Part shown: positions 26,140 through 33,672 of the stretch, piece after piece
How positions within the stretch are numbered: position 1 is the first letter of the stretch
How the letters are laid out: each line of letters begins with the position of its first letter
From: Truepera sp.
GTDB taxonomy: Bacteria; Deinococcota; Deinococci; Deinococcales; Trueperaceae
Direction of reading: 5' to 3'
DNA length: 64,000 bases
Assembly (NCBI GenBank): GCA_032027045.1
Contig: JAVSMU010000001.1
Location: forward strand, 2,800,783 to 2,864,782
The notes under the pieces: model-generated
Seen by the model: the letters and a program-made list of their open reading frames with translations, nothing else
Told to the model about the DNA's origin: nothing
Databases searched by the model: none
Translations under genes and position numbers: made by a program

Positions 26140-26817
26140 TCAGTCTTCGTTAGTCGCGTATCCCTCGATGATCTCCCCACCGGCCAAGACCGCGTCGTAC
26201 TCGACGAACGGCTCGGACATCACGTTTCCGTCCCTGTTCGCCTCACCCGCGGCGTGATAGGTGCCCGTGATACGAAAGCCCTCTTTGTCGATCAGGTCCC
26301 AGTCGTCGGTCGTGCCAGTCACCTCGATGGCGCCGAAGAACATGCGGAACCAGTTGTTGCTGTACAAGACGACCATGCTGCCCCCGGTTATCTTCTCGCG
26401 CTCGGGCGTGCCGTCATAAACGCCGAACTCGCCGTCCCACCTGCCCGATGCCCGTAACGCGGTGGTCTTGACGGCCACGCTCGCGGTATTGGGCCCACCC
26501 GCGAGCCCGGTTGCGGTGGCGGTGATGGTGTGACTACCCGGCGCAGGCGCCGCCAGTTCCGCCGACCACGCGCGCCTACCGGCCGAGGCGGCGGCGAGAG
26601 TGGCCGTGACCGGCGCTCCTCCACCGACGGTAACCTTGACACCGGCGCCGTCCACCACGCTTCCCTCGACGAGGATGGCGCTACCTGCGACGAACTCCTG
26701 GTCGGGTTGCGGTGAGGTGATCACCACTTCGGCCTGCGGCTGAGGTTGGGGTTGGGCGCCGCATGCCGAGAGGAGGGCGACCGTGAGGGCTAGGGCTAGC
26801 AGTCCAGTGGTTCTCAT
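26140..26817 (-). CDS. Secreted lipoprotein with Ig-like domain
   Basis: Signal peptide MRTTGLLALALTVALLSAC with lipobox LLSAC, followed by a QPQPQPQ spacer. Residues ~30-115 form an Ig-like/big-domain sandwich (VVITSPQPDQEFVAGSAILVEG, then SHTITATATGLAG). The C-terminal ~100 residues (RWDGEFGVYDG..FRITGTYHAAGE) look like a lipocalin-type beta barrel. It is monocistronic with a leaderless-type promoter. The substrate is unknown. Confidence 0.7.
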   Translation of the reverse strand: MRTTGLLALALTVALLSACGAQPQPQPQAEVVITSPQPDQEFVAGSAILVEGSVVDGAGVKVTVGGGAPVTATLAAASAGRRAWSAELAAPAPGSHTITATATGLAGGPNTASVAVKTTALRASGRWDGEFGVYDGTPEREKITGGSMVVLYSNNWFRMFFGAIEVTGTTDDWDLIDKEGFRITGTYHAAGEANRDGNVMSEPFVEYDAVLAGGEIIEGYATNED

Positions 26818-27490: not shown

Positions 27491-27553
27491 GTGATCTCTG
27501 ACTCGAGCGCGCACCAAGACCACTTTTTCGACAGGGAAGGCGGGCCCGGCTGA
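27491..27553 (+). CDS. Possible 20-residue leader ORF of the cbb3 operon
   Basis: GTG 27491 has GGGAGG four bases upstream. The frame encodes a short acidic peptide (DHFFDREGGPG at its end) and its TGA overlaps the ccoN ATG (TGATG). An alternative ATG at 27380 would give 58 residues. It may serve to couple translation into ccoN, which has no strong site of its own. Confidence 0.4.
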   Translation: MISDSSAHQDHFFDREGGPG

Positions 27554-28995
27554 TGGCGCAGAACGCCCCCGTACTCAGGGTCGGACGACCGCTAGCCATC
27601 AGCAAGACGAGCGTCGAACCGGTGGCCGACACCGACACCGCCTGGACGCGGCTCATCTACTCCTACGCGTCGTGGGCCACCGTCTGGCTCATCTGGGGCA
27701 CCCTGATCGGGCTCTACCTCAGCCTCAAGTTCGCCGCCCCCGATATGGAACACATCGCGTGGCTGTCTTACGGCCGGCTGCGTCCCGTGCACACCAACAC
27801 CGTCTTCTGGGGCTGGTCCTCGCTGGCCATGATGGCGGCGGCCCTCTACGTCGTGCCCCGCACCAGCCAGCGGCGGCTCTGGTCCTACCCGCTCGCTTGG
27901 GTCAGCCTCTGGCTCGTGAACATCGCCGTGCTGGCGGGCGACCTGCTGCTCATGGCCGGCATCAACAACGGTGGCCAGGAGTACCGCGAGTTCATCTGGC
28001 CCGTCCAGGCAGTGTTCGCCACCGGCGTCATCCTCATCGCCTACAACTTCATCCGCACCATCGCCGACCGGGGCATCGAGGAGATCTACATCTCCAACTG
28101 GTACATCATGGGCGGCCTGCTCTGGACCATCCCACTGCTGGTCATCGCCTACATACCCTTCTACCAACAGAACGCCATCAGTGAGACGGTCATCCAGGGT
28201 TACTACATGCACATGGGCGTGGGCATGTGGTTCACGCCGGTGGTGCTCGGCCTCACCTACTACGTGCTGCCGAAGTTGTTGAACAAGCCCATCTACTCGT
28301 ACTCCCTGGGCGTCCTGGCGTTCTGGACGCAGATGGTCTTCTACTCGCTCATCGGGGCGCACCACTTCGTTTTCGCGCCCACGCCGTGGTGGCTGCAGAC
28401 GGTGGCCATCATCTTCAGCGTCGGCATGATCATCACGCTTGCCGCCGGCACCGGCAACTTCCTGCTCACCATGCGTGGGAGCTTCCGCACCATCGCCCGC
28501 TCGTACAGCCTGCCGTTCATCCTGGCGGGGGTCATCTCGTACTTCCTCTTCTCCGCCCAGGGGTCGCTCGAGGCGCTCCGCAGCGTGCAGGGGCTGTGGC
28601 ACTTCACCAACTACACCGTGGCGCACTCGCACCTCACTATGTACGGCTTCGTGGTGCTGCTCATCTGGGGCGCCCTGTACGGCATCCTTCCCCGGCTTAC
28701 CGGCCACGAACCACCCCAGTTCTGGGTAGGGGTGCACTTCTGGTTCGCCGTCGTCGGCCTCGTGCTCTACGCGACGGCCCTCATGTTCGGCGGCACGATC
28801 CAGGGACTCAGCTGGATGAGCGGATCGCCGTTCATCGAGTCGGTCAAGGCCATGGCCTCGTACTGGCTCTGGCGCGCCGTGGGCGGCACGCTCATGTTCT
28901 TGAGCCACTGCATATTCGCCTACAACATGTGGACCATGCGCCCCCGTCCCGCCACCAGCCCCGCCAAGGCGCCGGTGGCCGAGGTAGCGCAGTGA
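27553..28995 (+). CDS. ccoN: cbb3-type cytochrome c oxidase subunit I
   Basis: CcoN is the catalytic core of the high-affinity cbb3 terminal oxidase. It has about 12 transmembrane helices and the expected histidines: GRLRPVHTNTVFWG (low-spin heme b), GYYMHMGVGMW (CuB region), GAHHF (CuB pair), and HFTNYTVAHSHLTMYGF (heme b3/b). It is 480 residues long. It is the first main gene of a four-gene operon and overlaps ccoO by GTGA. This oxidase allows respiration at low oxygen, consistent with the nirK genes 12 kb away. Confidence 0.95.
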   Translation: MAQNAPVLRVGRPLAISKTSVEPVADTDTAWTRLIYSYASWATVWLIWGTLIGLYLSLKFAAPDMEHIAWLSYGRLRPVHTNTVFWGWSSLAMMAAALYVVPRTSQRRLWSYPLAWVSLWLVNIAVLAGDLLLMAGINNGGQEYREFIWPVQAVFATGVILIAYNFIRTIADRGIEEIYISNWYIMGGLLWTIPLLVIAYIPFYQQNAISETVIQGYYMHMGVGMWFTPVVLGLTYYVLPKLLNKPIYSYSLGVLAFWTQMVFYSLIGAHHFVFAPTPWWLQTVAIIFSVGMIITLAAGTGNFLLTMRGSFRTIARSYSLPFILAGVISYFLFSAQGSLEALRSVQGLWHFTNYTVAHSHLTMYGFVVLLIWGALYGILPRLTGHEPPQFWVGVHFWFAVVGLVLYATALMFGGTIQGLSWMSGSPFIESVKAMASYWLWRAVGGTLMFLSHCIFAYNMWTMRPRPATSPAKAPVAEVAQ

Positions 28996-30263
28996 ACTTC
29001 CACAAGAACCACTGGTTGCTCTTCAGCGTCATTTGCTTCGGCTTCATCGGCCTGTCGCTCATCGTGGGCATCTTGCCGGCCATCTGGGTGCAGAACAACT
29101 CGGAACCGATGCCTGGGGCGCAGCCCATGACCGAGATCGTGCAGCGCGGCATCGACGTTTACGTTGCCGAAGGCTGCGTGGCGTGCCACACGCAACAGGT
29201 GCGCCCCCTCGAGATGGACGCCGTTTGGGGCCGGCCTTCCGCCCCCGGCGACTACGCCTACGTGACCCCGAGCTCATGGTGGGCGCCTTACGCCCCGGCC
29301 GTGCTCGGCAGTGAACGGACCGGACCCGACCTCACCAACGTGGGCGCCAGGCAGTCGAGCGACGTGTGGCAGTACATGCACCTCTACAACCCGCGCTCGG
29401 TGGTGCCGGACTCAGTCATGCCCGCCTACCCCTGGCTGTTCGACCGCGTGACTACGGTGCCGAGCGGCAAGACCGCGGTGCCGGTGCCCGCCCACTTCGC
29501 GCCCAAAGACGGTTCGCTGGTGGTTCCCAACGAGAAGGGCGAGGCCCTGGTGGCTTACTTGCTCTCGCTGAAGCAACCGTCCTTGACCGCCGCTCCAGTT
29601 ACCCTGGAGCCGGAGGCCGCTGAGCCGGCGCCGGCCGGCGAGCCCGAACCGGCCGGCGAGCCGCAAGCCGCGACCGAGCCGGAAGCCGCCGCCGAACCCG
29701 AACCGGCCGCCGAGCCGCAAGCCGCCGCCGAGCCAGAAGCCTCGGAAGCACCGGCCACGCCGGAGCAGCCGGAAGCCGCCCCGGCCCCAGCCGCGACGCC
29801 AGAGCCGGCCGCGCCGGCCGCCGCCGAAGAGCCGGCCGCGCCGGTCACCGCTGAAGAACCGACCACTCCCGCTCCACCCGCAGCCGAGGAGGCAACTACC
29901 CCCGCCGCAGAAGAAGCGCCGATCTCTTGGGACGAGGAGTTGGGCAGCGCCACCTACACCGCCCACTGCGCCGCCTGTCACCAGGCCACGGGGCAGGGCA
30001 TCCCGAACGCGTTCCCGCCGCTGGCGGACGACCCGGTGGTCACGGCCGACGACCCCACCGAGCACGTGACCACGGTGCTGCACGGCAAGCAGGGCTCGAC
30101 CATCAACGGCGTCACGTACGGTGCGGCCATGCCGCCGTTCGCGGCACAGCTCAGCGACGAGGAGATCGCCGCCGTCGTCAACCACGAACGGACCAGTTGG
30201 GGTAACTCGGCGCCGCTCGTGACCCCTGCGGACGTGGCCGCCCTGCGCGGAGGCGGGCAATGA
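28992..30263 (+). CDS. ccoO: cbb3 oxidase subunit II (CcoO) fused to a second cytochrome c domain
   Basis: GTG 28992 overlaps the ccoN stop. Residues ~8-33 are the membrane anchor. The CcoO heme c site is CVACH (62-66) with the typical CcoO surroundings RPLEMDAVWGRPSAPGDYAY and SERTGPDLTNVGAR. The CcoO part ends near 195 with VAYLLSLKQ. A ~110-residue Ala/Pro/Glu linker (AEPEAA repeats, ~200-310) then joins a class I cytochrome c with CAACH at 326-330 and an AAMPPF Met-ligand segment. Ordinary CcoO has ~200-240 residues and one heme; this 423-residue protein should bind two. The extra domain is a close copy of the one in the CcoP-like gene. Confidence 0.92.
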   Translation: MNFHKNHWLLFSVICFGFIGLSLIVGILPAIWVQNNSEPMPGAQPMTEIVQRGIDVYVAEGCVACHTQQVRPLEMDAVWGRPSAPGDYAYVTPSSWWAPYAPAVLGSERTGPDLTNVGARQSSDVWQYMHLYNPRSVVPDSVMPAYPWLFDRVTTVPSGKTAVPVPAHFAPKDGSLVVPNEKGEALVAYLLSLKQPSLTAAPVTLEPEAAEPAPAGEPEPAGEPQAATEPEAAAEPEPAAEPQAAAEPEASEAPATPEQPEAAPAPAATPEPAAPAAAEEPAAPVTAEEPTTPAPPAAEEATTPAAEEAPISWDEELGSATYTAHCAACHQATGQGIPNAFPPLADDPVVTADDPTEHVTTVLHGKQGSTINGVTYGAAMPPFAAQLSDEEIAAVVNHERTSWGNSAPLVTPADVAALRGGGQ

Positions 30264-30520
30264 CTACGTTCCTCAGCCTGGTTCTCACGCTTCAGAACCA
30301 GATGAACGGCCACGGAGGGACCGATCCCCTCGAGCACTTCACGCTGCTGCCGGCCGGCCACCACGTTGCCGACCCGGCGGGCAGCTACGAGTACGTCCTC
30401 GTGGTCGCGGGCGTGATCATCACGCTGCTCGTCACGTTCTTCACGATCAAGTTCTTCTTCAAACCGGGCGAAGCCGGCGCCGGCCACATCAAGCGCCGGA
30501 TCCTGCGGGACGACCGGTGA
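30260..30520 (+). CDS. Small single-helix membrane protein of the cbb3 operon (CcoQ position)
   Basis: An 86-residue protein with one transmembrane helix (YVLVVAGVIITLLVTFFTIKFFF, ~46-68), a His-containing N-terminus (GHGGTDPLEHF) and a basic C-terminal tail (HIKRRILRDDR). It sits where ccoQ usually does and overlaps ccoO by four bases (ATGA). It is longer than CcoQ and lacks clear sequence similarity, so the role is inferred from position only. Confidence 0.6.
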   Translation: MTTFLSLVLTLQNQMNGHGGTDPLEHFTLLPAGHHVADPAGSYEYVLVVAGVIITLLVTFFTIKFFFKPGEAGAGHIKRRILRDDR

Positions 30521-30533
30521 GGGGGTTTCTGCC

Positions 30534-31430
30534 ATGAGCGACGAGCGAAACGAGACCGGCGGCCTTCCGGGCGGCGTTCCAGTCGGCCCGGGCGAAAACG
30601 CCGCGTCGAGGGAAGACCTTAGCCGTATCGACGTGTACCTTGACGGCGGCACCGAGCCCATCGTCAGCTACCGGCCGCCGGTCAGCTTCGAGCTCGACTC
30701 CACGCAACTGGACGACGGAGACCACGTCCTGCGCATCGAGGCGCGCGACTCCTCCGGCACGAAAGGTGTTCGCGTCGTGCCCTTCACGGTGCGGAACGGC
30801 CCGGGGATTGCCCTACACGGCCTGACCCCGGGCGACGTCCTCGACGGGAAGGTGCAGATTCTCGTCAACGCCTACGGCGGCGCGAACGAGAAGTACTGGG
30901 AACCGTCGCGCGCCGAGACCCCGGCGCCCATCCCCACCTGGACTTGGGTGCTCGTCTTGTTCATCGTTGCCTTCGGGGTGTTCTACGGGGTGCGTCACTG
31001 GAACCCGTCTCCCGACTTCGCGTCCACGCCCACGTTCAGTTCCACCACCGCCCAGACGAGCCAGGCTCCTGGCGCAGTCGGCGGGCCCGCCGGCGCGCCC
31101 ACGGGCCAGGGCGGTGCCAAAGGGGAGGCCCTCTACTCCAACCTTTGCGCGGCCTGCCACCAGGCCGGCGGACAGGGCCTGCCGGGCGTGTTCCCGCCGT
31201 TGGCGGGTGACCCGGTCGTGACCGCCGCCGACCCTACCGAGCACATCAGTACCGTGTTGCACGGCAAACAGGGTTCGACCATCGACGGCGTCAGCTACGC
31301 CGCGGCCATGCCGGCGTTCGCGGGACAGCTGACGGACGAGGAGGTGGCCGCCGTCGTGAACCACGAGCGCACGAGTTTCGGCAACTCGGCCCCCACCGTT
31401 ACCGCCGACCAGGTAGGCGCTTTGAGATAG
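30534..31430 (+). CDS. CcoP-like cytochrome c with N-terminal Ig-like domain
   Basis: A disordered N-terminus is followed by an Ig-like beta-sandwich (~30-90: IDVYLDGGTEPIVSY, DDGDHVLRIEARDSSG, VVPFTVRNG). A CcoP-like joining segment (EKYWEPSRAETPAPIPTWTW) leads to one transmembrane helix (136-154), a flexible linker, and one class I cytochrome c with CAACH at 205-209. Normal CcoP has two hemes c and no Ig domain; here there is one. If the heme is periplasmic, a single helix would leave the Ig domain in the cytoplasm. About three quarters of the cytochrome domain is identical to the CcoO extension. Confidence 0.85.
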   Translation: MSDERNETGGLPGGVPVGPGENAASREDLSRIDVYLDGGTEPIVSYRPPVSFELDSTQLDDGDHVLRIEARDSSGTKGVRVVPFTVRNGPGIALHGLTPGDVLDGKVQILVNAYGGANEKYWEPSRAETPAPIPTWTWVLVLFIVAFGVFYGVRHWNPSPDFASTPTFSSTTAQTSQAPGAVGGPAGAPTGQGGAKGEALYSNLCAACHQAGGQGLPGVFPPLAGDPVVTAADPTEHISTVLHGKQGSTIDGVSYAAAMPAFAGQLTDEEVAAVVNHERTSFGNSAPTVTADQVGALR

Positions 31431-33000: not shown

Positions 33001-33672
33001 TCAGGACGGGCGGGCTTCGTCAAGCGAGGCCAACGCGGCGAACGCGCAGCTGCCCTCGCCGTCCGCCATGCAGGACGTGAGCCGCACCTCGGTTCCCAAT
33101 AGGAGCGAGATCAACCGTTCGTCGAAGCGGCAAACGGCGCGCGTCTCCTGGGCAACGCGGTGGTAGATGCAGTTGATTGCCTCGATGGACTCGCCGTCCG
33201 CCGCGAGGCGCGCGTGGTATCCGAGTTCGTTCATCTTCTCGATCACTGCCGCGCGCCTGGACGGTGCGTCGAGTCTCTCGAGCGCGGGCAACAGCTCGGC
33301 GGCCAGGTCGTCCGCCATGGTAGCGAGAACCGACTCGGCGGTTTCGTCCCCGAGGCGGTCCCGGAGCGCCCGGAGCATGCCCAGCGACAGCATGTCGTAG
33401 CGGCGTGGGAACGTCTCCCGGCCCCGCTCGGTCATCCCGTAGGTCCGGCTCGGCCTGCGACCGCTGGGCCTCAGGCCGATCGGGGCCACCAGCCCGTCGC
33501 GCTCCAGGGCCGTTACCTGCTGGCGCACGGCGTTGCGCGTGACGCCCAGCAGGGCCGCGAGTTCGTCGAGGGTCAGGCCCTCCGGCTTGGTGTGGAGCAG
33601 TTGCTGCAGGAGCGCCTCGCGAGTGCTAGGAGGCGGTTGCTGCGCTGCCGTAGGAACCTTTCCTTGCGTCAC
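33001..33672 (-). CDS. SufR-like iron-sulfur transcriptional regulator
   Basis: An N-terminal winged helix (~18-85; LTLDELAALLGVTRNAVRQQVTALERDGLV) is joined to a sensor domain with four C-terminal cysteines, C168, C181, C201 and C209, in the pattern of SufR-type [Fe-S] repressors. SufR controls iron-sulfur cluster assembly genes; no suf genes are in this window, so the targets are unknown. GTG 33672 has AAGGAG eight bases upstream. The palindrome at 33691-33706 lies just upstream of this site. Confidence 0.82.
   Translation of the reverse strand: MTQGKVPTAAQQPPPSTREALLQQLLHTKPEGLTLDELAALLGVTRNAVRQQVTALERDGLVAPIGLRPSGRRPSRTYGMTERGRETFPRRYDMLSLGMLRALRDRLGDETAESVLATMADDLAAELLPALERLDAPSRRAAVIEKMNELGYHARLAADGESIEAINCIYHRVAQETRAVCRFDERLISLLLGTEVRLTSCMADGEGSCAFAALASLDEARPS

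Follow-up and report, generated by a model that had tools for sequence, protein, structure and literature searches.

The window analyzed here is a stretch of 64,000 nucleotides from Truepera sp. (GCA_032027045.1, contig JAVSMU010000001.1, positions 2,800,783 to 2,864,782 of the forward strand), and it contains an oxidase operon with the gene order N-O-small TM-Ig/TM subunit, the same as in the Ig-subunit cbb3 branch considered below. The parts of the operon are listed in Table 1.

Table 1. Positions of the oxidase genes and their domains in the window
Feature	Coordinates	Strand	Basis
CcoN, catalytic subunit I of a divergent cbb3 (C-family) oxidase	27553..28995	+	Pfam COX1 262.7 bits; TIGR00780 ccoN 241.8 bits, below the cut-off of 583
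CcoO (whole)	28992-30263	+	423 aa; CxxCH at residues 62 and 326
CcoO core (FixO): TM helix and first heme c	28992..29579	+	CxxCH at 29175; FixO 126 bits; helix 7-36 in the structure model
CcoO linker, Ala/Pro/Glu-rich, predicted disordered	29580..29921	+	about 114 aa (composition); pLDDT mostly 40-50
CcoO C-terminal heme c domain	29922..30257	+	CxxCH at 29967; Cytochrom_C; likeness to the CcoP-like domain; structure model
Small one-helix protein in the CcoQ position	30260..30520	+	counterparts at the same place in relatives (tblastn)
CcoP-like subunit (whole)	30534-31430	+	298 aa; one CxxCH at residue 205
CcoP-like subunit, N-terminal Ig-like domain	30621..30887	+	strand pattern of the model; weak Big_7 matches in relatives; weak FnIII fold match
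CcoP-like subunit, single TM helix of FixP_N-like (CcoP) character	30936..30995	+	helix 135-154 (model); weak FixP_N in homologues
CcoP-like subunit, single heme c domain	31104..31427	+	CxxCH at 31146; Cytochrom_C 1.5e-12; structure model

CcoN matched Pfam COX1 with an E value of 7.9e-78, and ccoN was its best NCBIfam match though below the curated cut-off. The candidate histidine ligands of CcoN (H80, H220, H270, H271, H350, H358 and H360) are invariant within the family. The FixO core of CcoO scored 126 bits against a Pfam cut-off of 29.6, which marks it as a membrane-anchored monoheme CcoO. Pfam found FixO plus Cytochrom_C/Cytochrome_CBB3 in CcoO (Cytochrom_C for the whole protein, E 2.3e-14, best stretch at residues 316-398), and Cytochrom_C/Cytochrome_CBB3 only in the CcoP-like protein. 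The initial annotation had described an extra C-terminal heme c domain on CcoO, carried by a long Ala/Pro/Glu linker, and this description holds: a second CxxCH follows a linker of 114 residues (about residues 197-310) of which Ala, Pro and Glu make up 82%. In the structure model of CcoO, the linker is disordered with a folded part on each side, and the C-terminal heme c domain has a pLDDT of 82-98 over most of its length; the heme domains of CcoO and of the CcoP-like subunit are both folded. By its topology, the CcoP-like subunit is predicted to have its Ig domain in the cytoplasm. Pfam and NCBIfam searches gave no match for the small one-helix protein, and a PDB sequence search with the Ig part of the CcoP-like subunit returned weak, unrelated matches only.

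Two other genes lie near the operon. Upstream of ccoN, on the opposite strand (26140-26817), is a small putative lipoprotein with a Big_7 Ig domain. A SufR-like winged-helix regulator with C-terminal Cys residues is encoded close to the operon at 33001-33672 (minus strand), and it may act as a sensor of Fe-S or NO status. A counterpart of the SufR-like gene is also present in a second genome of the genus (G091), with a short fragment match in a third (G090), and a downstream deacetylase gene is common to the window and these two genomes. The operon neighbourhood, which was examined as a clue to function, is conserved only within the genus.

The heme c domain at the C-terminus of CcoO and that of the CcoP-like subunit are identical at 75 of 101 residues without a gap, in agreement with the three quarters estimated initially. 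The DNA that encodes the two domains is 76% identical (blastn 209/261, E 6e-66). The third codon positions agree at only 63%, near the level given by codon usage, and the same codon is used at 50 of the 75 shared residues when 43 are expected from codon usage. Judged from their sequences, the two domains thus go back to a duplication that is not a recent one. Recent gene conversion between the two domains was also considered and rejected, as the third codon positions give little sign of it.

The host genome (G000) is a single contig of 2.92 Mb. It has a single FixO match and no match to FixP_N, and we therefore found no hidden two-heme CcoP; a separate two-heme ccoP elsewhere in the genome, which the initial annotation had named for relatives as a counter-case, did not turn up here. 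With one CxxCH in the CcoP-like protein and no FixP_N in the genome, no canonical two-heme CcoP is seen. Seventeen cytochrome c stretches were listed in the genome, which also encodes three further COX1-family oxidases. A search of the genome for FixG_C, the mark of the canonical assembly factor CcoG, gave no match, so the cbb3 oxidase there would have to be assembled either by a CcoG that escapes recognition or in the absence of the usual one.

To find the same fusion elsewhere in Deinococcota, we surveyed 111 genomes of the phylum. FixO was present in 12 of them, and six of the 12, all from the same family, hold this operon. The fusion layout occurs in the window genome and, as the initial annotation had suggested looking for, in two others of the same genus (G091 and G094). 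In the remaining three (G090 of the same genus, and G082 and G083), CcoO and the Ig subunit have a single heme motif each. Four members of the genus were thus found with this oxidase, three of them with the fusion. In a tree of CcoN, a group with an SH-aLRT of 85 unites the three fusion genomes, and G090 branches just outside it. Since the family relatives have two hemes c in total, the third heme c of the fusion genomes appears to have been added. Another Deinococcota family (G005-G008, operons L035-L038) has a distant cbb3-type operon with CcoN about 33% identical, a two-heme CcoO, an additional heme protein and a downstream cytochrome-b-like gene.

For the wider branch, GTDB genomes were scanned with a CcoN alignment; many are MAGs, and some taxon labels may be wrong. 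Operons of the branch were found in Bacteroidota, Halomonas, Thiobacillus, Sulfuricella, Ignavibacteriota, Nitrospirota and others, with CcoN 54-87% identical, and this spread over phyla suggests lateral transfer of the oxidase operon. Four operons (L044, L045, L046 and L047, in MAGs labelled Acidobacteria, Thiobacillus, Sulfuricella and Burkholderiaceae) have CcoN sequences 73-77% identical to that of the window, a likeness that suggests lateral transfer or mis-binning. In nearly all operons with a long enough contig, the place of CcoP is taken by a protein with an Ig-like domain and one helix. The numbers of CxxCH motifs on CcoO and the Ig subunit, readable for both in 80 operons that are dominated by Bacteroidota and do not represent independent events, were (2,0) in 66, (2,1) in 9 and (1,1) in 5. 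A two-heme CcoO is thus the common state of the branch: the heme-bearing C-terminus is present in 75 of the 80 operons, and the Ig subunit is heme-free in 66 of those. In the CcoN tree L055, a (2,0) member labelled as an uncultured proteobacterium, sits on a long branch between Bacteroidota and all others. The layout in the window had been called abnormal. The motif counts behind that claim stand (two CxxCH on CcoO, one on the CcoP-like subunit), but a heme-bearing C-terminus of CcoO is not unusual in the branch, and an NCBI model for it exists.

When the heme states were placed on a CcoN tree of 24 operons, at least seven changes were needed; by this sequence evidence, the heme module is gained on or lost from either subunit several times across the branch. 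No two-heme CcoP was found among the branch relatives. Of 29 homologues of the Ig subunit, 17 matched FixP_N weakly in the helix region (best E 0.0011), and a profile of heme-bearing Ig subunits aligned to CcoP chains from the helix through the heme. The Ig subunit is likely a CcoP derivative with an added Ig domain, the FixP_N signal being weak.

Alignment of the heme domains and a tree had been proposed as a check on the copying of the module between subunits, and we built a tree of 40 domains (about 100-113 columns). The three CcoO copies of the genus form one clade (96/90), which sits in a larger group with the Ig-subunit domains of the genus, L043_P and L044_P (93/90). Adding the flank to the alignment gave one group (82/93) that holds the CcoO copies, L044_P and every Ig-subunit domain from Deinococcota. 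Two short motifs also link the CcoO copies to the Ig-subunit domains of G082 and G083: the flank (W/F)D..LG.S and the tail LVTP..V occur in both sets but were absent from the CcoO domains examined outside the family; the flank motif was spotted by eye after the tree was seen and is supporting rather than independent. In addition, L032_O is 76% identical to L033_P and at most 67% identical to any CcoO domain from outside the family among those compared. The best trees and the flank motif thus favour, without proving, a copy from the Ig subunit to CcoO within the genus, replacing a lost ancestral domain. Of the initial proposal that a module was copied between the subunits, the duplication stands and this direction is favoured. 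Its other part, that the second heme of a normal two-heme CcoP had moved to CcoO with three hemes c conserved, we regard as very improbable: three heme c motifs in total with one on the CcoP-like protein would fit it, but G082, G083 and G090, the nearest relatives, have one heme per subunit and two in total, no relative in the branch with a two-heme CcoP was found, and in most of the branch the Ig subunit is heme-free.

The main alternative, conceivable but unlikely, is that the C-terminal heme of CcoO is original, being kept in the fusion genomes and lost in G090, G082 and G083, and that its likeness to the Ig-subunit domain comes from old gene conversion or shared selection. Such retention agrees with the heme-bearing C-terminus being the commonest state of CcoO in the branch, and with the RxxGQ tails of the CcoO copies, which run past the ends of the Ig-subunit domains and resemble the tails of other CcoO domains. 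It is compatible with the AU test too, in which holding the CcoO copies with proteobacterial CcoO domains was not rejected (p = 0.064 without the flank, 0.22 with it), and a simple count of steps makes several losses plus gene conversion about as costly as loss plus regain. Against it, the CcoO copies have the Ig-subunit type of flank and cluster with Ig-subunit domains in the best trees, the third codon positions hold little trace of recent conversion, and separate losses would be required in G090 and in G082/G083. A decaying, redundant CcoO copy without function is still less probable. Between G000 and G091 the CcoO domains are 71% identical and the Ig-subunit domains 89%, so the CcoO domain is diverging faster; yet CxxCH, an MP motif that contains the likely Met ligand and an open frame are retained in all three genomes, and the model of the CcoO domain has a confident fold. 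An assembly or prediction artefact, a possibility raised initially, is rejected, since the genome is a single contig and the same layout recurs, with diverged sequences, in two other genomes of the genus.

Taken together, we consider it rather probable that the window holds a member of an Ig-subunit cbb3 branch with tethered heme modules, in which the CcoO module was lost and then recopied from the Ig subunit. In the oxidases of this branch, the two-heme CcoP would have been replaced by the subunit with an Ig domain and one helix, which has a weak CcoP (FixP_N) signal. Monoheme c modules sit on flexible linkers at CcoO, the Ig subunit or both of them, and probably act as tethered electron-entry units. 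In the Deinococcota family the CcoO module was probably lost earlier, leaving one heme per subunit, and the Ig-subunit module would then have been copied onto CcoO, to give three hemes c, in the ancestor of the three fusion genomes among the four found in the genus with this oxidase. The closest solved structures to the heme module, the tethered C-terminal heme c of NirK and the cytochrome c552 of Thermus, are those of electron donors, and from this likeness we infer, as the simplest mechanism, the entry role of the modules. Electrons would then pass from a donor to the tethered heme c, the fixed heme c of CcoO, heme b and b3/CuB; the covalent attachment of heme c, this route and the function of the window oxidase are likewise predicted. 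A broader proposal, which we put forward tentatively and at somewhat less than an even chance, is that the entry module is exchangeable, has moved repeatedly in both directions and is tolerated at either or both anchors, the genus of the window being a case in which a lost module was recopied.

The electron supply of cbb3 oxidases is usually pictured as a fixed path, with two hemes on CcoP and one on CcoO. Close operons of the branch differ mainly in the anchor of the heme module, and they offer a natural test of whether the site of attachment matters for electron entry. A search for CcoP that relies on the number of hemes or on the FixP_N model overlooks a large set of oxidases. In the open-licence literature we found no paper that describes an Ig-type CcoP together with a diheme CcoO, nor one on paired similar heme domains with a location that shifts across one branch. 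Two cbb3 subtrees (proximal and distal) that differ in subunit composition are attributed to Ducluzeau 2008, as cited in a 2022 paper (PMC8788666).

The fusion of CcoO with a cytochrome c is itself a known type with an NCBIfam family (NF011054, PRK14486, bifunctional cbb3 subunit II/cytochrome c), which like the CcoO of the window has a C-terminal heme c in one chain. However, the window CcoO scores 132.6 bits, below the curated cut-off of 447, its linker is much longer, and its partner subunit bears a near-copy of the heme domain. With the canonical CcoNOQP of Pseudomonas stutzeri (PDB 3mk7) the window oxidase shares CcoN, the CcoO core, a small subunit in the Q position, a CcoP-like subunit and a total of three hemes c; unlike it, the window oxidase has no two-heme CcoP, has an Ig domain on the CcoP-like subunit and reverses the 2+1 split of the hemes. 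Three-domain NirK of Ralstonia pickettii, a different enzyme, has a tethered C-terminal cytochrome c that is about 41% identical to the heme module and is likewise a linker-tethered donor. The Ig-subunit cbb3 oxidases of Bacteroidota, Halomonas, Ignavibacteriota and Thiobacillus have the same gene order, the same Ig+TM subunit and CcoN 54-77% identical, but in most of them the Ig subunit is heme-free, and the placement of the heme depends on the lineage.
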